From an uncultured bacterium (lineage in GTDB: Bacteria > Bacillota > Clostridia > Oscillospirales > Oscillospiraceae): 64,000 nt of DNA. Positions 10,618-23,637 of the stretch are shown piece by piece (the first letter of the stretch is position 1; every line of letters starts with the position of its first letter). Where the stretch lies: the NCBI GenBank assembly GCA_946548895.1, contig CAMNQF010000006.1, positions 62,001 to 126,000 of the forward strand, read 5' to 3'. The position numbers and the translations under genes are program-made. Under the pieces are notes generated by a model, which did not search any database, was not told the DNA's origin, and saw nothing but the letters and a program-made list of their open reading frames with translations.

Positions 10618-12063
10618 ATGAGCGAACAGAGCAGCAGCGGATTCCCCTCTGCGGAGGTGCCCGATGGTAAGGGTTTGGACATCGACGCCATCTTCGGCGG
10701 CGCGCCTAACGGCGGAACCCCCGGCGATGTGAACCCCTTTGAGGCGGCGCTGGCCCAGCAGCCCGCGCTCGCCGCAGCCATCCCGCAGGGGCAGCCCCAG
10801 ACGACGGCTATGCCCGCCGAACAGGCGCAGCCCCAGACGACGGCTGTGCCCGCCGAGCAGGCGCAGCCCCAGGCCGCCCAGCAGCCCGCAGCATCTGCGC
10901 CGCCTGTGTTCCAGAGCGTCCAGCCTGTGCAGCCCGCCCCGGCCACCGCGCCTGCGGCAGTCCCGGCACCCCAGCCCCCGCTGGACATCGACCCCCTGGC
11001 CGCCGCCATGGCGGAGCAGGAGGCCAAAACCGAGCAGAAGGCAGCCAAGTCCCTGTTTGAGAAGGCCCCGGTGTTCCACTACGGCAGCGCCCGGGAGGAC
11101 ATCACCGACCCCGGCATGACCTTCGAGGAGCTGCGTATCGCCAAGTCGGCGGATTTCCCCGAACTGGGCGAGGGCAAGAAGGTGTCCTGGACGGTGGAGT
11201 ACGGCAAGACGGTGAAGGCCATCACCGACCCCAAGGGCACTACCATCGCCTCCGTCAAGTCGGAGATTGAGCTGTCCAAGGCGTTTCTGGACAACCTTAA
11301 GAAGGCCAAGGACAAGAACCCGGACTGCCTGGTGAAGCCCCGGGTCACCGCCCAGAGCAAGGGCATCGCCGCCTATAAGGGCGTGTTCGCCTCATTGGAG
11401 GAAGCCCGGGCATCGGGCAAGGCCATCTGCACCATCCCCGGCGGGGACGGCAGGGTGTACGAGCTGCGCAAAAACGAGCTGGGCGAGTTCATCGCCCCCA
11501 AAGACAGCGTGATCGACCTGGGATCGGTCAGGGCCGGGTTTACCCCGGCCCTCCCGCTGGTGCCCATGGAGCTGCTGGCGCAGATCATCTCCTTCTTTCG
11601 GTGCTGCATGACCGGCCCCGAGGAATTTGAGGCGCTGGCCCACATCCTCTGGGATAAGCAGGAGCAGGAATTTGTGGTGCGCATCCCTGAGCAGACGGTG
11701 ACCAAAGCCCACATCGACGCCAAACTGAACCGGGACGATCTGCCGGAGGAGCGGTATCTCCACTACATCGACATACACAGCCACAACAGCATGGAGGCCA
11801 AGTTCTCCCCCGTGGACGATGAGGACGAACGGGCCACCCGCATCTACATCGTGGTGGGCCGCCTGGACAAGTTCTTCCCCGATATCACGGTGCGGATGTC
11901 CTGCGGCGGAACCTACCTGACGCTGCCCCCGGGATGCGTGCTGGAGAGCTTTGGCGCGGTGTTTCCCGCCGAGTGGCGCACTCAGGTGAAGCTGCTGCGC
12001 AGAAGCGCCCCGCCGGTGCTGCATCCTTTGGCTGAGCCGCTTCGGTGTCAGGGGATTGTCTAA
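10618..12063 (+). CDS. JAB/JAMM metalloprotease (PRTRC-A-like) with possible ubiquitin-like segment
   Basis: 481 residues from the ATG behind GAAAGGAG (10606-); an upstream in-frame ATG lies in the terminator hairpin and is unlikely. Residues 1-150 are a low-complexity Ala/Pro/Gln linker with 12-residue repeats. Residues about 165-215 (MTFEELRIAKSADFPEL, then GKKVSWTVEY and ITDPKGTT) resemble PRTRC protein C, a ubiquitin-like fold. The C-terminal domain carries a full JAMM zinc signature, HSH at 387-389 with Ser397 and Asp400 spaced HxH-x7-SxxD. JAMM enzymes cut isopeptide or C-terminal ubiquitin-like bonds. The stop overlaps the ATG of the ThiF/E1-like gene, so the pair is coupled. It is the first gene of a 13-kb operon. 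JAMM call is firm; the ubiquitin-like segment is inference. Confidence 0.8.
   Translation: MSEQSSSGFPSAEVPDGKGLDIDAIFGGAPNGGTPGDVNPFEAALAQQPALAAAIPQGQPQTTAMPAEQAQPQTTAVPAEQAQPQAAQQPAASAPPVFQSVQPVQPAPATAPAAVPAPQPPLDIDPLAAAMAEQEAKTEQKAAKSLFEKAPVFHYGSAREDITDPGMTFEELRIAKSADFPELGEGKKVSWTVEYGKTVKAITDPKGTTIASVKSEIELSKAFLDNLKKAKDKNPDCLVKPRVTAQSKGIAAYKGVFASLEEARASGKAICTIPGGDGRVYELRKNELGEFIAPKDSVIDLGSVRAGFTPALPLVPMELLAQIISFFRCCMTGPEEFEALAHILWDKQEQEFVVRIPEQTVTKAHIDAKLNRDDLPEERYLHYIDIHSHNSMEAKFSPVDDEDERATRIYIVVGRLDKFFPDITVRMSCGGTYLTLPPGCVLESFGAVFPAEWRTQVKLLRRSAPPVLHPLAEPLRCQGIV
10792..10875 (+). repeat. 36-bp tandem repeats coding a QPQTTA(M/V)PAEQA linker
   Basis: Units start at 10792, 10828 and (partial) 10864. 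They encode the disordered N-terminal linker of the JAB protein and probably vary in copy number between strains. Confidence 0.8.
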
Positions 12064-12840
12064 TGAAGTTTTCTATGACCCGCCCGGTGAAGATCGTCAT
12101 GCTGGGCGCGGGCGGCACAGGAGGCCACATCGCGCCTCACCTGTACCGCCTGCTGTACTCCCTGCACCGCCCGGTGCGGTTCATCCTCTGCGACGGCGAC
12201 GTGGTGGAGGAAAAGAACCTGGTGCGGCAGAACTTCACCCCCCGCCGACCTGGGGGAGAACAAGGCCAGGGTACTGGCGGAGCGGTATTCCGCTGTGTTC
12301 GGCATGGAAACGGAGTATGTGCCCTCTTTTGTGGAGGATGAGACACAGCTTTGCGGCCTGCTGAAACCGGAGCACCTCTGGATGCGCCAGCCCGGCCACG
12401 AATACAATGTGCGGACGCCGGAATTGGTCATCCTCATCGGCGCTGTGGACAACAACAAATCCCGGCAGCTGTGCCACCGGGTGTTCTACCAATCCGAAGA
12501 ACTGATCTACATCGACAGCGGAAACGGCGAGTTCACCGGCCAGGTGGTGTGCGGCGTGCGCCGGGGCGGCAGAACCTACTACCCGCCTATCGGCATCGTC
12601 TACCCGGACGTGCTGGAGGAGACGGACAAGTTCCCCACGGAGCTGTCCTGCGCCGAGGCGTCGGTGTCAGCCCCCCAGAGCATGGCGGCCAACATCACGG
12701 CGGCCACCATTGTGGTGGACATGATCTACAACATCCTGGCCACGGGCAGCAGCACCGTGCGGCGGGTGACCTTTTCCACCCAGACCGTCAATGTGCGGCC
12801 TGAGCTGCAACAGAAGAAAGAAAGGAGAAAAGCGGCATGA
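12063..12840 (+). pseudogene. ThiF/E1-like adenylyltransferase (PRTRC ThiF family), frameshifted
   Basis: The first frame gives MKFSMTRPVKIVMLGAGGTG with the nucleotide-binding glycine motif, then CDGDVVEEKNLVRQNFTP. Directly after this, at a run of six C (12238-12243), the coding frame changes. The +1-shifted frame continues ADLGENKARVLAERYS and then MFGMETEYVPSFVED through VILIGAVDNNKSR to ELSCAEASVSAPQSMAAN, the region with the probable catalytic cysteine, ending at 12840. One C too many explains everything. ThiF/E1 proteins adenylate the C-terminus of a ubiquitin-like partner and pass it to a cysteine. The start overlaps the JAB stop (TAATG). The frameshift could be real decay, slippage at the C run, or a sequencing error. 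Confidence 0.85.
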
Positions 12841-13940
12841 GAGCCAAAATAGATGCAAAGGATTTTGTCCAAGCGTTGGAGCGGGTGAGCGGCATGATCC
12901 GCAAATCGTCCATCCCCGTCCTGAACGCCGTGCTGGTTCGATTTGAGGCGGATCGCTGTACCCTGACCTCCACCAACATCGACACCTATCTGTCTGTGGA
13001 TCTGCCCGCACAAGGGGACAACTTCGCTTTTTTGCTGGATCGGCCCCGCGAGACTGCCAGGGCTTTTCGGCAGTTTGAAGGCGAATTGGCCCTGGAACAG
13101 ACGGAGAAAGGCGAGGGGGAACACCGGCGGATCACGCTGGCCTTGTCCTGCGGCCCCCGGTCTGCGATGCTGCACCCGTTTCTGCCCGAGGACTTTCCCA
13201 GGGGGCCGAAGTGGGAGCCGAAGCATAGCTTCACCGCCAACGCAGCCAAGCTGTACGCCCGCGTGGAGCGGGTGAGGTATGCCGCCGCGTTTCCCAGCCC
13301 TGATGATACCCGGCCCAGCCGGAGCAAGGTGCAGTTCAGCGGAAGCCATGTCTATGCTGTGGACGGCTACCGCATGGCCTGGGACACCGACCCGGAGCTG
13401 GATATGCCCCGGCCCTTTATGGCGGCCCCGGACGCGCTGGAGCATTTGAAGCTGTTTGGGGATCAGGCGGTCTCCATCCAGCTGGGGGAGCGGTTCGCCA
13501 GGGTGACCGACGGCGTGACATCGCTTCTGTTCCGCCTGCCGGAGGGCGAGCTGTTCAAGCTGGACAGCGCCATCCCGGAGCGGTATCAGGCGGAGGCCCA
13601 AGTGTCCCCGAAGGAGTTCCTGTCCGAGCTGAAGTATCTGAAGCGATCCCTGCGGGGGAACCAGGCCCATGTGGTGCGGTTCAGCGGCGGCAGTCTGCTG
13701 GGCGAATACGCGGGAGAGCGGTACGCCACCAAAATCTCCGCCACCGGCTGTAAAGATGTAGAGTTCGGGTTCAACCTGGACTACATGGCGGACGCCCTGG
13801 AGCAATTCGGCAGGGAGCCGTCTGTGAAAATGAAGGTCAGCGCCGGTTCCCTTGGCCCGATCATCTTTGAGGCCGAGGGGCGGAACGACCACGCCATGGT
13901 GCTGCCCGTCCGGCTGAAAGAAGTCAGCAGGGCCGCGTAA
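12837..13940 (+). CDS. DNA polymerase III beta sliding clamp homologue of a mobile element
   Basis: 367 residues, the usual size of DnaN. The N-terminal domain reads KIDAKDFVQALERVSGMIRK, SSIPVLNAVLVRF and LTSTNIDTYLSVDLPA, matching the first clamp domain. The middle has HVYAVDGYRMAW (the TDGHRLA strand of clamps). The C-terminus ends GRNDHAMVLPVRL, equivalent to the final MPMRL of bacterial clamps. It forms a ring on DNA that tethers polymerase and other factors. It is unusually divergent from housekeeping DnaN and sits between the ThiF-like and unknown element genes, so it most likely serves element replication. The ATG overlaps the preceding stop (ATGA), with AAGGAG just upstream. Confidence 0.85.
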   Translation: MRAKIDAKDFVQALERVSGMIRKSSIPVLNAVLVRFEADRCTLTSTNIDTYLSVDLPAQGDNFAFLLDRPRETARAFRQFEGELALEQTEKGEGEHRRITLALSCGPRSAMLHPFLPEDFPRGPKWEPKHSFTANAAKLYARVERVRYAAAFPSPDDTRPSRSKVQFSGSHVYAVDGYRMAWDTDPELDMPRPFMAAPDALEHLKLFGDQAVSIQLGERFARVTDGVTSLLFRLPEGELFKLDSAIPERYQAEAQVSPKEFLSELKYLKRSLRGNQAHVVRFSGGSLLGEYAGERYATKISATGCKDVEFGFNLDYMADALEQFGREPSVKMKVSAGSLGPIIFEAEGRNDHAMVLPVRLKEVSRAA

Positions 13941-13952
13941 TAGGAGGAAACA

Positions 13953-14426
13953 ATGGATTTCAAGGAATTTAACAGGCTCTACCGCAAGGATACCATCTCG
14001 TTTTTGATCGCCTTGAATCTGTACCTGGGCTACGGGGCCACCGTGCTCAGGGCAGGCTCCAAGGAGGATCTTTCCGGCGCCGCGGCCCTGGAGATCTCCG
14101 GGCTGTTCGCGGCGGAAAAGCGGGATCACATCATCGAAACAGCGCGGAAGCTGGCCGAGATAGATCCCAACGATTTGATCCCGTACATCTCCCAGTGCGG
14201 CATCCGCGCCGGGGCCAGCAGCTCCGATGAGCCCGGCGTCTGCCCGGTGTGCGGCGGCAGGATCAAGTACGACCACGAGGGCTCCTCAGAGTGGAACTTC
14301 ATCCTGACCTGGCACTGCCTGGACTGCGGCGCCACCGGCGAGGAGAACCATCACCTGGTGTTTGACGCCCACTATAACCTGCACGAGAAGAACGGGGATC
14401 CCATTCCTCGGAGATATCAGAAATAG
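13953..14426 (+). CDS. Conserved element protein with C-terminal zinc ribbon
   Basis: 157 residues, not recognised by name. The N-terminal two thirds is helical (DFKEFNRLYRKDTISFLIAL). Residues 97-125 hold CPVC and, after 21 residues, CLDC, a four-cysteine zinc ribbon likely to bind nucleic acid or protein. A GGAGG site lies just before the ATG, and the gene is 12 bases behind the clamp gene. Cytoplasmic. No catalytic motif seen. Confidence 0.7.
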   Translation: MDFKEFNRLYRKDTISFLIALNLYLGYGATVLRAGSKEDLSGAAALEISGLFAAEKRDHIIETARKLAEIDPNDLIPYISQCGIRAGASSSDEPGVCPVCGGRIKYDHEGSSEWNFILTWHCLDCGATGEENHHLVFDAHYNLHEKNGDPIPRRYQK

Positions 14427-14439
14427 GAGGAAACTGAAC

Positions 14440-15081
14440 ATGAAAATTGTCTACATCCCCCGCGGTGAGACCGTGTCCTATGATAACCTCGCCACCGAGT
14501 GCCTGGTGGTAGAGGGCTGCCTGAAGGTGACCTATGACCTCAAGGCAAAGAAAATTATTGGCAGCGGCTCTGTTACGGCCAGCAGTATTTCGGCGGACGA
14601 CATTCGCGCGGATGAGCTGAGTTCGGTAAGAGTGTCCTGCCGGCGTTTGATTGCCAAGCGGGTGGAGACCTCTGAGCTGTTTGCGTCGGAAAGCGCCGCC
14701 GTGTCGTGCCTGTTGTCCGCGGACTATGTGCAGGCAAGCCGGCTGTCGGTAGTGCTCAGCTACGTCCATGACGTAGACGCGGATGAGGTCATCAACCTCA
14801 AACAGAAAAAGCGGGGCTTGTTCCGATTCCTGCTGGCATCCAGTCTGCGCTCCTGGTGGACACGGCTTACCGCTCCCGCTGATGACGGCGCCCTTACCCA
14901 AATCGGAGCCCAGCGCAGCGGGTCCGATTTGGAGAGGAGACACAGCGAAATGAGCGAGCTTTCGGCTTTAGCCGGAAGCGAGGGATATGGAGCTTGTGCC
15001 GACGATGCGGAGTACGAGGTCAAAAACCCCACGCCGGTTGTCCACCTGGAAACTGAGAAGGAAAACAAGCCCGCCGCTTAA
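14440..15081 (+). CDS. Unknown protein with bactofilin-like repetitive beta pattern
   Basis: 213 residues from the ATG behind AGGAGG. Residues about 20-120 show a short periodic alternation of hydrophobic strands and turns (LVVEGCLKVTY, DLKAKKIIGSGSVTASSISADDIRADELSSVRVSC), the look of a right-handed beta-helix such as bactofilins (polymer-forming cytoskeletal proteins). The C-terminal 90 residues are polar and probably disordered after a basic stretch (KQKKRGLFRFLLASSLRSWW) that might touch the membrane. If real, it could scaffold element DNA or anchor a complex. Fold assignment is by eye only; a neutral name is hypothetical protein. Confidence 0.65.
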   Translation: MKIVYIPRGETVSYDNLATECLVVEGCLKVTYDLKAKKIIGSGSVTASSISADDIRADELSSVRVSCRRLIAKRVETSELFASESAAVSCLLSADYVQASRLSVVLSYVHDVDADEVINLKQKKRGLFRFLLASSLRSWWTRLTAPADDGALTQIGAQRSGSDLERRHSEMSELSALAGSEGYGACADDAEYEVKNPTPVVHLETEKENKPAA

Positions 15082-15147
15082 CTGCGGGCGAATCGGAGGC
15101 AGGAAGCGGCCGCTTCCTGTCCTCTCAATTTTAAGGAGGTCATGAAA

Positions 15148-15597
15148 ATGTCCCACAAATCACAGGAAAAGAATATGCGCAGGCTGGCCGAACTGCTGGG
15201 CCAGGATCTGTCCTACATCTGGGGTGAAAAGGAGAACGGCCCCAACGGCGCGAAAAAGCAGTTCCTGAACACGGGCAAGGTGTTTCTCCGTGCGCTGGCC
15301 AAGGATCTGGGTCTGCAAGACGTCAGGGTGCACTCTGAACCCTCCGGCATTGGCGAGTCCGGGGACTGCACCCTTATGGGAATGTGGCAGACTAACGGAT
15401 TGTACATCGACCTCTCCCAGTTCTGCGGCAACCGGGAAAACGTACTGCTCTACCGCACCATTCGCCACAGCAAGGATTACAGCGGCGGGTATAACAATTT
15501 CCTCACCCTGCGGGATCTGGCGGAGATGAGTTATCCCGACCTGCTGTTCCTGCTGGCGGCGGTGCGGGAGGAGGGCGGCTATGAGCGGGCAGCCTGA
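15148..15597 (+). CDS. Conserved element protein of unknown function
   Basis: 149 residues. I chose the second ATG (15148) because AAGGAGGT lies 8 bases ahead of it but only 2-3 bases ahead of the first ATG at 15142. The sequence begins MSHKSQEKNMRRLAELLGQDL and includes GDCTLMGMWQTNGLYIDLSQF. No known motif. It overlaps the next gene by 17 bases, which supports it being a real member of the operon. Confidence 0.7.
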   Translation: MSHKSQEKNMRRLAELLGQDLSYIWGEKENGPNGAKKQFLNTGKVFLRALAKDLGLQDVRVHSEPSGIGESGDCTLMGMWQTNGLYIDLSQFCGNRENVLLYRTIRHSKDYSGGYNNFLTLRDLAEMSYPDLLFLLAAVREEGGYERAA

Positions 15598-16996
15598 CGC
15601 GCCCCAAACCGAACCGCGCAGCTATGCCCTGGAGGGGCTGCGGGGGCTTCAAAGCGAAGTCCCCCAGTTCACCCAGGCCATGGTGCTGTGCCGGGCCAGG
15701 GTGGAGCGGCACCGAAATACCGATCTTGCCGCCGCCCGGGACGATTACAACGACCTGCAAAAGGCACGGCAACGGCTGGTGGAGGCATTGGGTGAGGCCC
15801 AGCTTCTGCTGATGGAGGCGGAGGAATACCAACTGGCCGCCAACGCGGGCCAGCTGAAGGACGGTCTTCTGGGCTTTAACCTGCTGAGCAATACCTACCG
15901 CCCGGTGTATGACGCGCTGAACAGCTTTGCCGCCCAGCTCCCGGTGGATGGGACTACCAACGCCAGGGTGGTGGGGCGGCTGATGAACAACATCAAGCTG
16001 GGGTATTATCCCACCGACCCGGACAACATTTCGCTGATTTTGAAGGGCGTCCGCTTCCCGGAAGGGGTGACCACCAACCTGCTGGATCCCTGCTGCGGCT
16101 GCGGAAAGGCCCTGCGGCAGATGGCTGACGGAAACAACTGCTTCACCTACGGCGTGGAGCTGGACAACGCCCGGGCAGATGAGGCCCAGACCCGGCTCCA
16201 CCGGGTGGGCTTCGGCAGCTTCTTTTTCAGCCAGGTCAGCGCCAACGCTTTCCATCTGCTGTTCCTCAACCCGCCCTATCTGTCCGTGCTCAACGAGAGC
16301 GGCGGCAGGGCGCGGCATGAGAAGCGGTTCCTGATCGAGAGCCTGGGTGCGCTGACCCTGGGTGGCCTGCTGGTGTACGTCATTCCGTACTATCGGCTCA
16401 CCCCGGACATCTGCCGGGTACTGGCGGACAATTTTGAAAATCTGGGCCTTTGGCGGTTTACCGACGCCGAGTTCAAAAAGTTCAAGCAGGTGGCCGTTCT
16501 GGGCACGCGGAAAAAACGGGACGATGTTCCCCAGAATACGCAATGGCTGGAATGGTTCGCCGCGCACCCCAACTCCATCCCCTGCCTGACCGAGCTGCCC
16601 GAGGGTCACTACCCCCTCCCGGCCAGGCCGCTGGAGGTAAAGACCTTCCGTGGGGAGAAGTTCAACGAGAAGGAACTGGAGCGGCAGTTGAGCCGTTCGG
16701 ACAGCTTCCAGCGGATGATGGCCCGCAGCGAGCTGGATGGCGGAATAAAACGCCCGCCGCTGCCCCTGTCCATCAGCCAGATCGGGCTGATCGGCGGCTC
16801 CGGGCTGATCAACGGCCTGATCGAGTGCGCCACGCCCCATGTTATCAAAGGCCGGATCGTGAAGGTGACCCGGAATGAGACCGAGGAACAGTTTGACCCC
16901 AAGGGCCGGCACACCGGCACCGAGCTCCACGAAACCATTACTAACAAAATGATCTTCAACATCTTGACGCCCAACGGCTTCAAGGCACTGACGTAG
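15581..16996 (+). CDS. N6-adenine DNA methyltransferase-like protein (DUF6094 type)
   Basis: 471 residues. The N-terminal 90 residues form a helical/coiled region. A class I methyltransferase fold follows: motif I is LLDPCCGCGKAL (about 168-178, binds AdoMet), an acidic motif II (GVELDNARADEA), and the catalytic NPPY at 230-233, the signature of adenine-N6 or related amino methylases. The C-terminal 200 residues are specific to this element family and may read the target. No restriction nuclease is next to it, so it may be a solitary methylase that protects or marks element DNA. GAGGAGG precedes the ATG, within the end of the previous gene. Confidence 0.82.
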   Translation: MSGQPDAPQTEPRSYALEGLRGLQSEVPQFTQAMVLCRARVERHRNTDLAAARDDYNDLQKARQRLVEALGEAQLLLMEAEEYQLAANAGQLKDGLLGFNLLSNTYRPVYDALNSFAAQLPVDGTTNARVVGRLMNNIKLGYYPTDPDNISLILKGVRFPEGVTTNLLDPCCGCGKALRQMADGNNCFTYGVELDNARADEAQTRLHRVGFGSFFFSQVSANAFHLLFLNPPYLSVLNESGGRARHEKRFLIESLGALTLGGLLVYVIPYYRLTPDICRVLADNFENLGLWRFTDAEFKKFKQVAVLGTRKKRDDVPQNTQWLEWFAAHPNSIPCLTELPEGHYPLPARPLEVKTFRGEKFNEKELERQLSRSDSFQRMMARSELDGGIKRPPLPLSISQIGLIGGSGLINGLIECATPHVIKGRIVKVTRNETEEQFDPKGRHTGTELHETITNKMIFNILTPNGFKALT

Positions 16997-17007
16997 GAGG
17001 ATTCTTT

Positions 17008-17292
17008 ATGAGTGTAATTGCTGTGAATCCCCGGTTCAATCCGGGGCAACTGATGATCACCCGCAACGCGAAGGACATGCTTCCCCGCGTGGAGGTAAAC
17101 GCCGCCATCAAGCGGCACCTACAAGGGGACTGGGGCGATGTGTGCCAGTCGGACGGGGAGCTCAACGAGGAAGCCCTGCTCAATGGCGACAGGCTGTTCT
17201 CTGTCTACCATACCCAGGACAACGTGAAGTTCTGGATCATCACGGAATCGGACCGCTCCGCCACCACCGTTCTGCTCCCCAGCGACTACTGA
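17008..17292 (+). CDS. Conserved element protein, 94 residues
   Basis: Begins MSVIAVNPRFNPGQLMITRN and ends GDRLFSVYHTQDNVKFWIIT then ESDRSATTVLLPSDY. The last part is a compact alpha/beta pattern I associate with a small protein common in Firmicutes integrative elements. The function is unknown; public annotations as a restriction subunit would not be supported by this sequence. A TAGGAGGA site precedes the ATG and the spacing to neighbours is short, consistent with the operon. Confidence 0.75.
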   Translation: MSVIAVNPRFNPGQLMITRNAKDMLPRVEVNAAIKRHLQGDWGDVCQSDGELNEEALLNGDRLFSVYHTQDNVKFWIITESDRSATTVLLPSDY

Positions 17293-17304
17293 GGGGGCGG
17301 CGGC

Positions 17305-17598
17305 ATGAAGCTGGACTTGGATCTGCTGGTCATGCGGCTGATACTGGAACAGGAGGGGACGGTTTTGCCCCAGGCCAGCTGCAACGAGTATTTGATAAGC
17401 CAGGTGCTTCTCCCCCTTTTGCGGGGCGAGACAGTACCCTTGCGCGCCATCGACTACAGCGCCTTTGATGAAGACGACATTTTGGCGCTGGCTGAGTACA
17501 ACGACGCCGTATATCGGATTGCCCAGGCTTTGGGGCAGACGGCGGAGCGCATCGGCGCCATCACGCCTGTCGCCCGCTCTGCCCGGCAATTTTGTTGA
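17305..17598 (+). CDS. Conserved element protein, 97 residues
   Basis: MKLDLDLLVMRLILEQEGTV and on; largely helical. The ATG follows TGAGGGGG. No motif recognised. It lies 12 bases behind the preceding gene and 8 before the next. Confidence 0.6.
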   Translation: MKLDLDLLVMRLILEQEGTVLPQASCNEYLISQVLLPLLRGETVPLRAIDYSAFDEDDILALAEYNDAVYRIAQALGQTAERIGAITPVARSARQFC

Positions 17599-17606
17599 GG
17601 TGCGCC

Positions 17607-18170
17607 ATGGATATATTGGACGACAATGTATTCCAGATCCTGTGCACCGCCAAGCGTCTGGCGGACAACGGTTTTCTGGAACCGTTTCTCGAACGGTGCG
17701 GCAGTTATGATCTGGGCCGGGAGGAATTCTACGATTTCGCGTGGGAAGCGGTCGGCTGTGTTTTTCCTGATCGCACGGGATACTGGAATCAGGAAAATGA
17801 AATAGACACCATCGTTATCTTTGACCCCCTGGTGGATGAATTCTGCCGTCTTCTGGCACAGTACGAGACGGCGTGCGGCGCCGCGCCGGGTGAGAGCGAT
17901 CTGCGGCATGAGACCGTCACAGACGTCTTGCGCGCGTTCGACCTGGAGGGCTGTTTGGATGGCTACTACATTTACGACTATGATTTTCGCGTTTGTGACA
18001 CCGGGCATGGCCGAAAGCGGCTGGTGTTCCTGTCCGGGATAGAGTTCTGCGGGATCCAGGGACTGCCCGGAGCCATGGCGGATGTCCGCCGCGCGCTGGA
18101 ATACCAGGTTCGGCGGCTCCGCCGCGCGCTGGGCATGGAACAGGAAACTGAAACAAAGGAGGCGGCTTGA
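17607..18170 (+). CDS. Conserved element protein, 187 residues
   Basis: The start is taken at ATG 17607 behind TTGAGG; an in-frame TTG 15 bases upstream is less likely. The sequence is acidic in the middle (DDNVFQILCTAKRLADNGFL, then DYDFRVCDTGHGRKRLVFLSG) and ends in a basic helix followed by an acidic tail. No family recognised. Its stop is immediately followed by the ATG of the E2-like gene, so the two are probably coupled. Confidence 0.65.
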   Translation: MDILDDNVFQILCTAKRLADNGFLEPFLERCGSYDLGREEFYDFAWEAVGCVFPDRTGYWNQENEIDTIVIFDPLVDEFCRLLAQYETACGAAPGESDLRHETVTDVLRAFDLEGCLDGYYIYDYDFRVCDTGHGRKRLVFLSGIEFCGIQGLPGAMADVRRALEYQVRRLRRALGMEQETETKEAA

Positions 18171-18848
18171 ATGGGATGCAATGGCGATATCGTCCTGCGC
18201 ATTTCGCCCGAGCGGCTGGAGATCGCGCTGGAACAGCAAAAGGAGGGCGGCGTAGTCGCCCGCAAGAACATCTCGCCGGAAGCCCTGGCCGCCTGTATCC
18301 TGGGCAGCCGGTATGACGAAAGGGCTCGGGCCACCGGCCTGCTGCCCGAGGGCTGCATCGCGGCCATTCTGGAGGAGGTAAATACCACCTACTTCATCCG
18401 ATACCCGGAATTGTACGCCGACATCAGCTATTACGGAACGGAATATCTCCATTTTCCCCTTCCCCGGCTGGTGTTTGCCTTCCAGCATCTGGCCAAAACG
18501 GGCAGGGTGGGCAAGTGCCGGCTGTGCGTGGTAAAGGATGAACTGCTGACCCCAGATACGCCCACATATCACTATCCGTTTTCCAACGTGAACAGTGAGA
18601 ACGGGCAGATCTGCACCGGGAACAACGCCCTGCCTGCCTACCCAGACCCGTTCAGGCTCCACACGCTGATGGGGTACATCCTGCGGCTGCCCAACAACAA
18701 CGACTACTTCATGGCCGCGCATAACCGGCCCCACGCTGGGTACCGGGATCTACTGGAGCTGATGAAGGACAAATCCCCTGGCTTCTACTACTCTGATATT
18801 TTGGTGGAGGACGGCAAAACACTGAACGCCTTTATGAATGGGAGGTAA
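18171..18848 (+). CDS. PRTRC-B / prokaryotic E2 family D-like protein
   Basis: 225 residues. The centre reads FPLPRLVFAFQHLAKTGRVGKCRLCVVKDELLTPDTPTYHYPFSNVNSENGQICTGNN, matching the PRTRC protein B pattern of a proline-rich hinge, a PF-N strand and a G-IC-G turn seen in the E2-like (ubiquitin-conjugating) superfamily. The cysteine in GQICTG is the obvious candidate for the active or structural residue. With the JAB and ThiF-like genes of the same operon it completes a JAB-E1-E2 set. A GGAGGCGGC sequence precedes the ATG, which directly abuts the upstream stop. Family fairly sure; conjugating activity is inferred, not shown. Confidence 0.75.
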   Translation: MGCNGDIVLRISPERLEIALEQQKEGGVVARKNISPEALAACILGSRYDERARATGLLPEGCIAAILEEVNTTYFIRYPELYADISYYGTEYLHFPLPRLVFAFQHLAKTGRVGKCRLCVVKDELLTPDTPTYHYPFSNVNSENGQICTGNNALPAYPDPFRLHTLMGYILRLPNNNDYFMAAHNRPHAGYRDLLELMKDKSPGFYYSDILVEDGKTLNAFMNGR

Positions 18849-18852
18849 TGGC

Positions 18853-19734
18853 ATGGAACGGAAAGACCCGAGACAGATTCAGGCCGAGCTGGCCATGCCC
18901 TTTGCGCCGGAGGACTTAGAATGGCGGCTGCAAAGGACGTTTGAGTACCAAGGTGAAGCCAAAGGCGTCGCCGTCCCCTACGTCACCAACCGGGCCATCA
19001 TGTCCCGGCTGGACGATGTGGTGGGCCCGGAGAACTGGTACAACGACTTCAAGCCCTGGCATGGCACCGGCGGGAAGGAAGCCCAGCTGTGCGGCATCTC
19101 CATCCGCTACGGGGACGGCTTCATCACCAAATGGGACGGCGCCGAGGATTCGGACATCGAGCCCGTGAAGGGCGGCCTGTCCGACAGCATGAAGCGGGCC
19201 GCCGTCCAGTGGGGCATCGGCCGGGTGCTGTATAACATGGACGTGGTGTTTGTGGAAGTGGAAAAGCGGGGCAAGACCTGGATCATCAAAAAAGACCAGC
19301 AGGAGCAGCTGGACTGCGCCTACCGAAAAATGCTGGGCAAGCTGGGCCTGACCCCGGCCCCCGCAGGCGGCCTGCGGCCCCAGCCGGAGCCCGCGCCGGA
19401 CGGTCAGACGGCGGGAACGCAGCAGGGGAGAGGCAGCAATGATGCCGCCGGACGTGCCGGACGCGCATCGGAAGGTAAGCCGAGGGGGAACGGCATTTCG
19501 TACATCATCCGCCATGCCCGCATCAACAAGGGGATCAACTCCATCAGCACCCAGCTGAGGCTGGAGTCCTCCCAGGGGGACAAGCTGGAAGCCTTTGTCC
19601 GGGGAGAGCACCCGGAGCTGACCGTGGGCGTCGTGCTGGTGGACGTGAAGCTGGAAAAGCGGCAGAAAGATACCGTTGTCTACTATATGCTTGAAAAGTT
19701 TAAGATCGCGGACACCCAGCCCCAGGCAGCTTAG
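18853..19734 (+). CDS. Rad52/22-family single-strand annealing protein
   Basis: 293 residues. I chose ATG 18853, five bases past the preceding stop, with GGGAGGT ahead. The N-terminal half is the annealing core: LAMPFAPEDLEWRLQRTFEY, VPYVTNRAIMSRLDDVVGPENWYNDFKPW, then GFITKWDGAEDSDIEPVKGG and SMKRAAVQWGIGRVLYNMD, all matching phage/element Rad52-type proteins. A Gln/Gly/Ala-rich linker follows, then a C-terminal domain. It would coat single-stranded DNA and anneal complementary strands during element replication or recombination. It is followed by an SbcC-like ATPase, a common partnership. Confidence 0.88.
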   Translation: MERKDPRQIQAELAMPFAPEDLEWRLQRTFEYQGEAKGVAVPYVTNRAIMSRLDDVVGPENWYNDFKPWHGTGGKEAQLCGISIRYGDGFITKWDGAEDSDIEPVKGGLSDSMKRAAVQWGIGRVLYNMDVVFVEVEKRGKTWIIKKDQQEQLDCAYRKMLGKLGLTPAPAGGLRPQPEPAPDGQTAGTQQGRGSNDAAGRAGRASEGKPRGNGISYIIRHARINKGINSISTQLRLESSQGDKLEAFVRGEHPELTVGVVLVDVKLEKRQKDTVVYYMLEKFKIADTQPQAA

Positions 19735-19747
19735 AAAGGAGAGGCAC

Positions 19748-21556
19748 ATGAAAAAAATCCAAAGCTTTCAGATCACCGGCATGACCATCGCCGGGTTCAA
19801 GTCCTATGGGGAACCCACGGAGCTGGTGTTCGGAAATCCCACCGTTATCACCGGCGGCAACGGCCGGGGCAAGACCAGTATTGCCGACGCCATCGCTTTT
19901 GCCGTCACCGGCCTCCCCTTCTTTGGGGAACGGGGCATCGACCGGTTGCACAATGAAACCCAGCCCGACGTGTCCATCACCATGAACTTTGTGGATGAGG
20001 AGGGCACCGCCCATGTGCTCACCCGCACCCGGCACAAGAGCGCCATGACCATCCTCTATGACGGCTACACGATCCGCCAGATGGATCTCACCGAGCTGTT
20101 TGGGGAGAAGGACGTGTTCCTGTCCATTTTCAATCCCCTCTATTTCATTGAGGAACTGGGGGACGACGGCAAAAACCTGTTGGAGCGGCACCTGCCCCCG
20201 ATCTCCCACGAGACGGTGCTGGCCCAGCTCTCCGACGCCACCCGGGCAGCCCTGGAAAACGAACCGCTTCTCTCCCCGGACATCTACCTGAAGCAAAAGC
20301 GGGCGGATATTCGGGAGCTGGAGGAAACCATCATCTATCTCCAGGGGCAGAAGGATCTGAGCGAAACCCAGGGGGAAAACCGGGAACAAAGCATTGCCGC
20401 CCTGACCGCCCGCCACACGGCCCTTGCCAAGGAGGTGGAGGAGCTGGAAGCCAAGCGGTTCGACGGCCTGGACACAAAGGCCATGGAGCAGCAGCTGGTG
20501 GAGCTCAGCGCCCGCTACCATGAGGCGGCTCAGGATGACTCTCCCCTGGACGCTGAGATTTTGGCGCTGGAGCGGAAGCTGGCCGCCCGAAAGGCGGAAC
20601 AGTACCAGTCCGCCTACACCCAGGCCATCGCCGACGCCACCGCAAAACTGGGGCAGCTGACCGCCCGGTTCAGCATGGACAAGCAGGCATTCCAGACGTT
20701 TGCGTCCGGCATGACCTGTCCCACCTGCCGCCGCCTCATCACCGAGGAAGCGTTGGTGGAGGTGCGGGCCGGGCTGGAACAGTCCGCCAAGGAGACCGTC
20801 GCCGCCGGCCAGGAGCAGCGGGCCCAGCTCAATGAGCTGAAAGAGAACGACACCAAGGCCAAGGCGGTCTTTGAGCAGTTCCAGGCCGATGATGTGGCAA
20901 AACTGGAACAGCAGCTGGCCGGCCTCAACGCGAAAAAGTCTGAGGACAGTCCCGTGGACAGCCTGCGCGCTGAGATCCAGCAGCTCACCGCCGACCTGGA
21001 GTACGGAAACCTCTCCGAGTCGGAGTACGATCAAATGGAGGAGTGCCGGGAGGGGCTGCGGGAGTGCGCCGCTGATTTGAAGGCGGCCCAGGCCGTGGTG
21101 GAGCAGAAGCCGGAGGACTTTGACGGAAAGATCAAGGCTGCCCAGGATCAGATCACGGTGCTGAAAAAGCTGATTGCCGACGTTGCCATCTATGTGAGCG
21201 AACGGGCGAAGCTGACCTTCTCCGCGCTGAAAATGAACCGGGTGGAGATCTCCCTCTACAATGTGGTGAAAACCACCGGGGAGCGGAAGGACGCTTTTAA
21301 GTTCACCTACGGCGGGCGGCGCTATGACCGGCTCTCCCTGTCTGAGAAGATACGGGCGGGGATGGAGGTATCCGAGCTGATGAAGCGGCTCACCGGGCGC
21401 AATTACCCGGTGTTTGTGGACAACATGGAGTCTGTGGACGATCTGGCCAATGTGCGGCCCACGGGGCAGGTCATCATGGCCAAGTGCGTCGGCGGCACGC
21501 CGCTGGCGGTGCGCCCGGTGCGGCCCATCACCCTGGCGGAACGGCAGGCTGCATAG
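19748..21556 (+). CDS. SbcC/Rad50-like SMC ATPase
   Basis: 602 residues from the ATG behind AAAGGAGAGG. Walker A is GGNGRGKTS at 36-44. Long coiled-coil arms (about 180-310 and 335-480) flank a zinc-hook-like CPTC at 324-327. The C-terminal lobe has the signature LSLSEK and a Walker-B strand YPVFVDNME. The protein is shorter than chromosomal SbcC, as usual in mobile elements. It should clamp DNA ends and act with a nuclease or the Rad52-type protein; no SbcD nuclease is visible. Translation begins 13 bases after the Rad52 gene. Confidence 0.88.
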   Translation: MKKIQSFQITGMTIAGFKSYGEPTELVFGNPTVITGGNGRGKTSIADAIAFAVTGLPFFGERGIDRLHNETQPDVSITMNFVDEEGTAHVLTRTRHKSAMTILYDGYTIRQMDLTELFGEKDVFLSIFNPLYFIEELGDDGKNLLERHLPPISHETVLAQLSDATRAALENEPLLSPDIYLKQKRADIRELEETIIYLQGQKDLSETQGENREQSIAALTARHTALAKEVEELEAKRFDGLDTKAMEQQLVELSARYHEAAQDDSPLDAEILALERKLAARKAEQYQSAYTQAIADATAKLGQLTARFSMDKQAFQTFASGMTCPTCRRLITEEALVEVRAGLEQSAKETVAAGQEQRAQLNELKENDTKAKAVFEQFQADDVAKLEQQLAGLNAKKSEDSPVDSLRAEIQQLTADLEYGNLSESEYDQMEECREGLRECAADLKAAQAVVEQKPEDFDGKIKAAQDQITVLKKLIADVAIYVSERAKLTFSALKMNRVEISLYNVVKTTGERKDAFKFTYGGRRYDRLSLSEKIRAGMEVSELMKRLTGRNYPVFVDNMESVDDLANVRPTGQVIMAKCVGGTPLAVRPVRPITLAERQAA

Positions 21557-21575
21557 GAGGTGATCCCGTCTGGCC

Positions 21576-22640
21576 GTGAAGCAGTATGACAAAATTCCCA
21601 TCGTGGACGCGGCCAGACGGTGTGGTGTGGCCCTCGATTCCCGGACGCTGAAACACCGGGAGGTGGAGGCCACCTGCCCCTTCTGCCGCGACCACGGGCC
21701 GGGGAAGTACCATCTCAGTCTCAATACCAGCACAGACCAGTACCGCTGCAACCTGTGTGGCGCCCACGGCAACAGCTTGACGCTGTATGCCCGGCTGATG
21801 GGCGTGACCAACCGGGAAGCATACCAGGCGCTGACCCGAGAGGGCAAGGTCTATCCCATGCCCCGGCAGGAACAGGCCCGGACGGAGGCGGAGCGCCAGC
21901 CCCTGCCCCTGGAGCGGCGGCACGAAGCCTATACCTCTATGCTGGAGCATCTCACGCTGCTGCCCCAGCATCGGGAAAACCTGTTGGAGCGGGGGTTGTC
22001 TGAGGAACGTATCGTGCAGAATCAGTACCGCAGTATGCCGGAAACGGAAGCGGGGCGGAGGCTTTTGGCCGCCCTGCTCCGCTCCTGCGGCCATGAGCTG
22101 CTGGGGCTGCCGGGATTCCGCACCTACTACGGCGACTGGACGATCAGCGGGCCGAAGGGGTTCCTGATCCCTGTCCGCAACAAGGATGGGCTGATTCAGG
22201 GCATCAAGATACGGCTGGACGATGCGGACAAGCCCAGCCGGAAATACCGCTGGCTGTCCAGCCGGGACATGCCCAACGGCACGCGCAGCCATTCCTGGGT
22301 TCATGTCACCGGCGACACCACCCAAAAGCGGGCCTTCCTCACGGAGGGCCCGCTGAAGGGGGACGTGGCCAGCTATCTGGCCCATGACGCGCTGTTTGTG
22401 TGCGTGGGCGGGGTGAACGCCATCCGGGGGTTGAAGGACACGCTAAAGGATTTGGGCGTTACCTAGGTGGTGGAGGCCATGGACATGGACCAGATGACCA
22501 ATTCCAACGTCCGCAATGCCGTGCTGGCGATGCGGAAGGAAGTACAGGCCATCAAGGGCCTAAAATACACGAAATACACATGGGACCCGGCGTACAAGGG
22601 GGTAGACGACTACTTCCTCAGCCGGGTGGCGGCCATGTAA
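21576..22640 (+). pseudogene. CHC2-zinc-finger primase-like protein interrupted by TAG
   Basis: The frame starts at GTG 21576 (or CTG 21570, better spaced from AGGAGG at 21555). A CHC2-type zinc finger reads CPFCRDHG and YRCNLCGAHGN, followed by the TOPRIM-like half with FLIPVRNKDGLIQGIKIRLD and FLTEGPLKGDVA. After KDLGVT a TAG (22464-22466) stops translation, but the same frame continues VVEAMDMDQMTNSNVRNAVLAMRKE and on to YKGVDDYFLSRVAAM with TAA at 22638-22640. This tail is the expected end of TOPRIM proteins (the DMD acidic motif). A Lys or Gln codon mutated to TAG explains it. The protein would make primers or bind element DNA; without the acidic tail it is likely inactive. Confidence 0.85.
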
Positions 22641-22659: not shown

Positions 22660-23637
22660 ATGGATAACGTATTTGATATGCATGATTTCATCGGCACATC
22701 CCAGGGCGACCAGGCCCATATGCTGGGTAAGTTCCTCTATTTCTCCCTGGCGAACCTGCTTGTGGACAAGGGGGAGCTGTCCAAGCTGTGCGAGGACATG
22801 GGCATTCCCTACGCCGGTGGCACCCGGCTGTCCGTGGGCGACGCGTTCCGCTCCGCCACCGGCGATATCCGGGAGCGTGTCCCGGTGACGGCCATGGGGG
22901 AGACCAACATCTACCTGGCCTACTGCCGGGATAACAAGCGCACCAGCGCCGATATTTTATCCCGGGAGCTGGTGAAGGAGACGCTGAACCAAAAAACCAA
23001 CAACTACGAAAAGCTGGCCAACATCAGCTATGATAAGAAGGACGGCGTGTTCCGGGCGGAAAACCTGGCGCCGGATGATGCCATCGACGTGCCGGCCTGC
23101 TGCCGCAAGGCGGAGGAGCTGTTTGAGCTCTATCAGAAGTGCGCCAACCGAAAGCAGATCGAAACCATCTGTGTCAACTATCTGCGGGGGCTGGAGGCCA
23201 CTAAGCTGAGTATCACGGGGCATATGTACTTCGTGCCCCGCACCCACATGGACAAGGTGGATGTGTTCGAGGAGTTCATCGGGTTGCTGGGCGGGCTCAA
23301 CCGCAGGGAGACGCCGCTGATGGTGAACAGCTTTTTCATCATCGACGATGAAAAGCAGCGGTCTAAAATGACCGAGGAATTCTATGCGGCGGTGAAAAAA
23401 GAGATTGCCACCTACCAGGAGCGGGCGGACTACCTTATCAAATCCGGCAGCCAGAGCCCGGCGGTGATGGATCGCTGGGTGCTGAAGATCCAGGCGCTGG
23501 AGGAAAAGAAGAAGCACTATGAGGAGGTGCTCCGCCGGGAGTTGGACGGGCTGGACGACGAGTTTTCCACGCTGAAGTTCCTGGGGCAGGAACTCCAGAT
23601 GAGGGTACAGAGTATTCGCTTTCAAAAAGTAGCATAA
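22660..23637 (+). CDS. Conserved element protein (possibly DUF6744)
   Basis: 325 residues. The N-terminal half is alpha/beta (MLGKFLYFSLANLLVDKGEL, VPVTAMGETNIYLAYCRDNK), and the C-terminal third is a coiled coil with many Glu and Lys. No catalytic motif is obvious. Similar proteins sit next to primase and SbcC-like genes in Clostridia elements; the DUF number is from memory and uncertain. It is the last gene of the operon, 19 bases behind the primase tail, and is followed by a strong terminator. AAGGAGGG precedes the ATG. Confidence 0.7.
   Translation: MDNVFDMHDFIGTSQGDQAHMLGKFLYFSLANLLVDKGELSKLCEDMGIPYAGGTRLSVGDAFRSATGDIRERVPVTAMGETNIYLAYCRDNKRTSADILSRELVKETLNQKTNNYEKLANISYDKKDGVFRAENLAPDDAIDVPACCRKAEELFELYQKCANRKQIETICVNYLRGLEATKLSITGHMYFVPRTHMDKVDVFEEFIGLLGGLNRRETPLMVNSFFIIDDEKQRSKMTEEFYAAVKKEIATYQERADYLIKSGSQSPAVMDRWVLKIQALEEKKKHYEEVLRRELDGLDDEFSTLKFLGQELQMRVQSIRFQKVA

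Follow-up and report, generated by a model that had tools for sequence, protein, structure and literature searches.

How can a set of genes apparently equipped to attach a ubiquitin-like protein to other proteins function when no separate gene for such a protein is found? The question is raised by a block of replication genes in an uncultured Oscillospiraceae bacterium (assembly GCA_946548895.1), located on a 64,000-nucleotide stretch of contig CAMNQF010000006.1 (positions 62,001 to 126,000), hereafter the window. The block contains genes for a JAB/JAMM protease, a ThiF/E1-like adenylyltransferase and an E2-like protein, all three distantly related by sequence to the PRTRC components A, ThiF and B. 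PRTRC systems, found on large plasmids, include a JAMM protein (A), an E2-like protein (B), a ubiquitin-like protein (C) and ThiF. Our comparisons support a PRTRC-C-related domain fused N-terminally to the JAMM part of the first gene product. We estimate at roughly two in three (0.68) the probability that the locus specifies a PRTRC-related ubiquitin-like conjugation system, the modifier of which is made as a modifier–protease precursor and cut after a Lys-Gly (KG) pair.

A preliminary description of this DNA had placed a ubiquitin-like segment at about residues 165-215 of the JAB protein. Such a domain is predicted, but these limits were wrong: the predicted beta-grasp domain spans residues ~149-249, with a helical insertion preceding its last strand, and ends in Lys248-Gly249. 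In the domain model, residues 149-246 align with residues 1-76 of ubiquitin (5oxh) and KG stands directly behind, so that the model combines a beta-grasp fold with a C-terminal glycine tail. The KG stretch lies beyond the last strand and is modeled with lower confidence (mean predicted local distance difference test score, pLDDT, of 66 for that block). Because the full-length model, covering residues 141-481, reached only intermediate quality (pLDDT 76, predicted template modeling score 0.56), the relative placement of the domains was not used. Residues 1 to ~140, rich in Pro, Ala and Gln, are presumably disordered.

The relationship to PRTRC-C was assessed against the NCBIfam models TIGR03735-TIGR03738 and Pfam PF14454, PF14460 and PF14464, and by comparing profiles. 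The window-type domain matched both the free PRTRC-C proteins and versions from Bacilli, and the latter two matched each other, with none of 200 shuffles scoring as high in any of the comparisons; the profile–profile E value of the window-type domain was 6.5e-6. The window's own domain gave no direct sequence match to PF14454 (Prok_Ub) or PRTRC_C. An Alicyclobacillus fusion protein is intermediate, a single chain matching PF14454 (5.7e-4), PRTRC_C (0.0075) and PRTRC_A (8e-15), the first two below cut-off. The segment from the third strand to KG (residues 187-249) aligns with the Bacilli profile through KG (E 0.0067, 0 of 60 shuffles). Taken as a separate ubiquitin-like unit, that same segment did not match free PRTRC-C (E 0.24, 20 of 60 shuffles as high) and matched the Bacilli profile only weakly, and a second domain was dropped since the AF2 model folds the whole region as one. 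The comparison that had been proposed for residues 150-280 thus came out as a predicted beta-grasp domain related to PRTRC-C, and the suggested fusion of C into the JAB protein is supported by the profile matches, the model, and the KG conservation and natural gene splits described below.

KG is retained in all 28 Oscillospiraceae-type rows of the alignment (L044 and L045 being near-identical, and L026 and L137 partial). Five of the 22 loci found in the family were left out: in L138, L145 and L148 the locus start already falls within the JAMM part, in L140 a stop precedes that part, and L147 showed no JAMM motif. KG is not the sole invariant pair in these rows, where 25 of the columns with at least 24 letters are invariant; it is more conserved than its immediate neighbors. 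Among Bacilli and Actinobacteria an equivalent KG occurs in 14 of 14 rows (10 fused, 4 split), and no other column of that alignment is invariant. In 14 free C proteins (11 from PRTRC plasmids, three from large phage contigs) the lysine is kept in all and the glycine in 13, and the chain ends exactly at KG in nine (seven of the 11 plasmid proteins). Three of the free plasmid proteins carry tails of 57, 5 and 64 residues past KG, as expected of a precursor; one phage protein has a single Cys after KG, and that of Pelobacter ends in KA. A DPKG motif at residues 204-207 was weighed as a cleavage site because the global alignment with free PRTRC-C ends close by; it was rejected, G207 being present in 20 of 28 rows versus 28 of 28 for G249, and the modeled chain continuing through two helices into the last strand.

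The strongest evidence that KG is probably a functional C-terminus comes from naturally split genes, since the same sequence is a chain end in some species and chain-internal in others. In four megaplasmids, from Peribacillus, Metabacillus, Cytobacillus oceanisediminis and Rossellomorea, the domain is a gene of its own immediately before the JAMM gene. In the first three of these genera KG forms the very end of the chain, and the Rossellomorea version runs on for two residues; the JAMM gene starts five bases past the stop codon in Peribacillus and overlaps it in the other three. These four belong to a set of 15 non-canonical plasmids (11 fused, 4 split) picked by hand from lists of 47 and 50 records so as to avoid near-copies, Citricoccus (L042) having been dropped as a weak PRTRC-C match without PRTRC neighbors. 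In the JAMM tree, which has long end branches and leaves 13 of 32 inner branches as open forks, the best topology needs five changes of the fused state and the well-supported branches force only one, either order of fusion and fission being compatible with it.

That no free PRTRC-C is encoded, as had been noted, agrees with our search: none was found among the 1155 open reading frames (ORFs) of the window or elsewhere in the genome, within the limited reach of models some of which also missed the fused domain. The JAMM ORF ranks first among the window ORFs against both the free PRTRC-C and the Bacilli profiles, if weakly (E 0.053 and 0.011). With the free-C profile the fused domain was recovered from a single one of the 15 non-canonical plasmids, and the window's genome gave no such match; the Bacilli profile recovered it in all 15, 14 of which had contributed rows to that profile. 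With these two profiles no second C copy beyond weak matches appeared in the 11 fused plasmids, and further C-like matches occurred in three of the 15 records (E 9e-4, 0.027 and 0.028).

The JAMM ORF matches TIGR03735 (PRTRC_A) with E 2e-12 (47.1 bits, cut-off 101.8) and Pfam Prok-JAB with E 1e-3 (19.4 bits, cut-off 25), and the complete site reported earlier is indeed there, E338, H387, H389, S397 and D400 conforming to E...HxHx7Sx2D within a predicted JAMM fold that is nearest to PfJAMM1-SAMP2 and to a bacterial Ubl-deubiquitinase complex. Against four relatives, the ratio of nonsynonymous to synonymous substitution rates (dN/dS) is 0.04-0.29 in the ubiquitin-like part and 0.10-0.33 after KG. 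Searches of PDB sequences with the JAMM and free-C profiles gave chance-level matches only, the window JAMM and E2 proteins had no match in PHROGs, and BFVD gave none at E <= 0.001.

The identification of the next gene as ThiF/E1-like also stands, although in the window its coding sequence, which overlaps the JAMM stop codon, is split over two reading frames: both pieces match TIGR03736 (PRTRC_ThiF; 1.2e-8 and 6.3e-12, 34.6 and 45.3 bits, cut-off 144.75), as does the intact L003 homologue (99.9 bits, again below cut-off). One Cys column is invariant in eight of eight ThiF sequences. The gene is a single ORF in 10 of 12 other loci. In L004 (10360-11109) one ORF joins the ThiF start to the end of the SMC-like gene through an internal deletion; in L007 (1229-1459) the frame stops after 77 codons, away from the contig end, and the other genes of the block were not found behind it. 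No other E1-like copy was found in the window's genome; a second Prok-JAB protein lies there beside what by eye resembles a ThiF/E1-like gene, perhaps with an E2-like ORF (L001, contig G000:C4, about 41.5-44.8 kb), possibly another type of ubiquitin-like operon. In Peribacillus and Rossellomorea the ThiF region seems to be broken up by group II intron ORFs (ltrA; L114 6916-10789 and L117 6872-10740, flanking pieces only partly checked), and one such ORF lies ~1.3 kb behind ThiF in Alkalihalophilus (L020 12831-16808).

The third gene, ~6 kb farther along, had been assigned to PRTRC-B/E2 family D, which PF14460 confirms (33.1 bits, cut-off 25); TIGR03737 (PRTRC_B) gives 3.9e-6 (26.4 bits, cut-off 131.45). 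Across 20 aligned E2-like proteins only one Pro and the Cys corresponding to C148 of the window are invariant, the Cys in 20 of 20. Five Bacillota plasmids were searched with the PRTRC_B model, and each gave a match (E 2e-17 to 3e-4), none of which reached the cut-off and one of which has an internal stop.

From this conserved anatomy we infer a pathway of cleavage, activation, transfer and targets. The modifier, corresponding to PRTRC-C, would be synthesized at the N-terminus of the JAMM protease (PRTRC-A), whose JAMM domain, in the same or another molecule, would cut after Gly249 to leave a modifier with a C-terminal glycine; release by its own fused protease is plausible. The ThiF/E1-like enzyme would then adenylate the terminal glycine, and the modifier would pass to Cys148 of the E2-family-D protein and on to targets, which may belong to the replication machinery that the element itself encodes; the JAMM protein could also take it off again. 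A sliding-clamp homologue encoded in the block is a candidate partner or target, the choice of target being a guess. An extended version, in which self-releasing precursors in mobile elements of Bacillota supply modifier and protease in equimolar amounts for attachment to the element's replication proteins, above all the clamp, strikes us as rather improbable; if true, clamp modification here would be a bacterial counterpart of PCNA ubiquitination and SUMOylation.

Several observations weigh against this pathway. The fold-comparison scores of the domain are modest, its local profile matches stop short of the KG end, and the alignment of Bacilli with Oscillospiraceae domains is partly ambiguous. 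For seven of the 20 E2-like proteins (L025, L049, L056, L115, L118, L121 and L122) the assignment was made from position and alignment only, that of L056 having no Pfam match. In addition, because its E1 gene is broken, the window copy may not support conjugation, except if the shift of frame was introduced by the assembly. The domain could instead stay attached as a regulatory or substrate-like part of the JAMM enzyme, as in UBL-bearing deubiquitinases, with KG being structural. The top two Foldseek matches, DUSP-UBL structures of USP15 and USP11, would fit this, as would the purifying selection acting jointly on both parts of the fused form. We nevertheless think it unlikely, as the split genes end at KG, KG sits in a lower-confidence stretch behind the last strand and is better conserved than its immediate neighbors, and, no other C having been found within the reach of the models, the E1 and E2 would be left without a modifier. 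Still less credible, and in our judgment very unlikely, is a sulfur carrier resembling ThiS/MoaD, activated by ThiF and carrying sulfur on its freed glycine without protein conjugation. The E1-like protein also matches ThiF models, and JAMM processing of fused ThiS/MoaD has been proposed (PMC1779556), but the set includes an E2-family-D gene with a conserved Cys, and the neighboring genes match replication and repair families, with no cofactor enzymes among the matches.

A further possibility, compatible with any of these readings, is that the window holds a decayed remnant in which the fusion has no present role. This is doubtful, though less so than the two preceding alternatives. The broken ThiF gene and an in-frame stop in a primase-like gene suggest decay or assembly errors, the ORFs flanking the block on either side look chromosomal by eye, no tRNA was found in the window, and L004, L007 and L008 likewise have broken ThiF or JAMM genes. 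On the other hand, the gene for the fused protein is intact with low dN/dS, the JAMM protein turns up in 15 of the family's 106 genera (21 of 400 genomes), ThiF is uninterrupted in 10 of 12 other loci, and the break may be an assembly error given that the source assembly has 116 contigs.

Coordinates of the features discussed (positions within the window).
Feature	Position	Strand	Remarks
Ubl-JAMM fusion protein gene	10618-12063	+	single ORF, 481 aa
Beta-grasp ubiquitin-like domain, PRTRC-C-related (aa 149-249)	11062-11364	+	
Lys248-Gly249, predicted modifier C-terminus and cleavage site	11359-11364	+	row conservation; chain ends of free versions
JAB/JAMM domain (aa 300-434)	11515-11919	+	
JAMM metal site H387-x-H389-x7-S397-x2-D400	11776-11817	+	E338 upstream, 11629-11631
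E1/ThiF-like adenylyltransferase gene, frame-broken	12063-12840	+	pieces 12063-12341 and 12295-12840; TIGR03736 on both
Sliding-clamp (DnaN) homologue	12837-13940	+	overlaps ThiF gene end; dnan 1.7e-14, under cut-off
DUF6094 methyltransferase-like protein, same block	15581-16996	+	PF19587 5e-174
E2-like protein (Prok-E2 family D / PRTRC-B-like)	18171-18848	+	PF14460; predicted catalytic Cys148 at 18612-18614
Rad52/22-like recombination protein, same block	18853-19734	+	PF04098 2.8e-15
SMC/Rad50-like ATPase, same block	19748-21556	+	PF13476 5e-11
Primase-like gene with CHC2 zinc ribbon	21576-22640 (or 21564-22637)	+	in-frame stop inside; PF01807 2e-4; dnaG 1.2e-6
DUF6744 protein, final gene of conserved block	22660-23637	+	PF20529 5e-109

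Compared with known systems, the locus is best regarded as a PRTRC-related variant outside the curated group. It differs from PRTRC in the N-terminal attachment of C to A, in A, ThiF and B scores that all fall below the curated cut-offs, and in an E2 gene set apart behind replication genes; no NCBIfam model for PRTRC ParB, E or F was matched at E<=1 by any protein of the block, in a library not checked for each model. From CBASS Cap2/Cap3, Bub and Bil it is distinguished by an E2 of another family and by the fusion of modifier to protease; at E<=0.1 none of the PADLOC models matched the JAMM, the E2 or the Ubl part, and only the L003 ThiF matched, weakly, to E1-E2/BilD models. Among phage tail proteins, the ubiquitin-like TAPI may be fused to TAPJ or to the JAB-containing TAPK, and JAB proteins were proposed to free such domains at their C-terminal glycine (PMC1779556). 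The tail-assembly context with NlpC/P60 and the protein families are unlike those of the window. The TAPI/TAPK systems are also not known to include E1 and E2. Eukaryotic ubiquitin and FUBI are made as N-terminal fusions to ribosomal proteins and freed after Gly, whereas the fusion partner here is the presumed protease itself; archaeal SAMP2 and JAMM1 (PDB 5lda) are separate proteins, unlike the fused pair of the window. At the level of titles and abstract openings, with preprints and most subscription journals outside coverage, neither a PRTRC-C/PRTRC-A fusion nor a paper on the PRTRC mechanism was found; in one paper that uses the term, PRTRC belongs to the name of a promoter.

As to distribution, the domain is seen complete or in part at 17 of the 22 JAMM places in the family; another four begin or stop ahead of it, and the remaining one showed no JAMM motif. 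A phylum-wide draw returned one match in 398 genomes, the window's own, and a search of a plasmid collection with the window protein gave 47 matching records, in which Bacilli were the leading genera among those named, along with sphingomonads and Nostoc. Viral-contig scans with single-protein queries found nothing; a scan with alignment A1 gave 70 loci. In all five phage stretches displayed, JAMM and ThiF-like genes are preceded by an E2-like gene, and in three a free C stands ahead of these (L049 7754-7942, ending ...DKGC; L050 7792-8028 and L056 7860-8057, ending ...GTKG); none was seen in the displayed stretches of Salmonella phage Arash and L047. In Arash (L025 1519-4536), gp247c matches PRTRC_A and gp246c PRTRC_ThiF, while the E2-like nature of gp248c comes from alignment alone; both gp246c and gp248c carry structural-protein annotation. 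A fecal scaffold deposited as 'Bacteriophage sp.' (L026, MT835919) holds the same operon as the window, and for that reason is probably not a phage but a plasmid or some other mobile element.

A clamp homologue is present on 14 of the 15 non-canonical and four of 11 canonical plasmids. By the listed positions, its distance from the JAMM gene is about 10 kb or less in six of the former and greater in eight, and it is close to the PRTRC genes in two of the latter, an association that could be explained by lineage. In Sporosarcina and Lysinibacillus (L021 5977-9850 and L023 12918-16560) the clamp-loader genes for DnaX and delta' stand directly behind ThiF, and in Azospira (L037 3019-4146) dnaN is found just ahead of PRTRC-E.

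Many large plasmids have annotated E1-E2-JAMM sets of the PRTRC type, and the coexistence of fused and naturally split versions predicts the exact bond at which cleavage would occur, making an uncharacterized bacterial tagging system testable. If the proposed processing is true, bacteria would share the precursor logic of eukaryotic ubiquitin, here with a single chain providing both modifier and protease, and tagging of proteins would become a candidate component of plasmid replication control.

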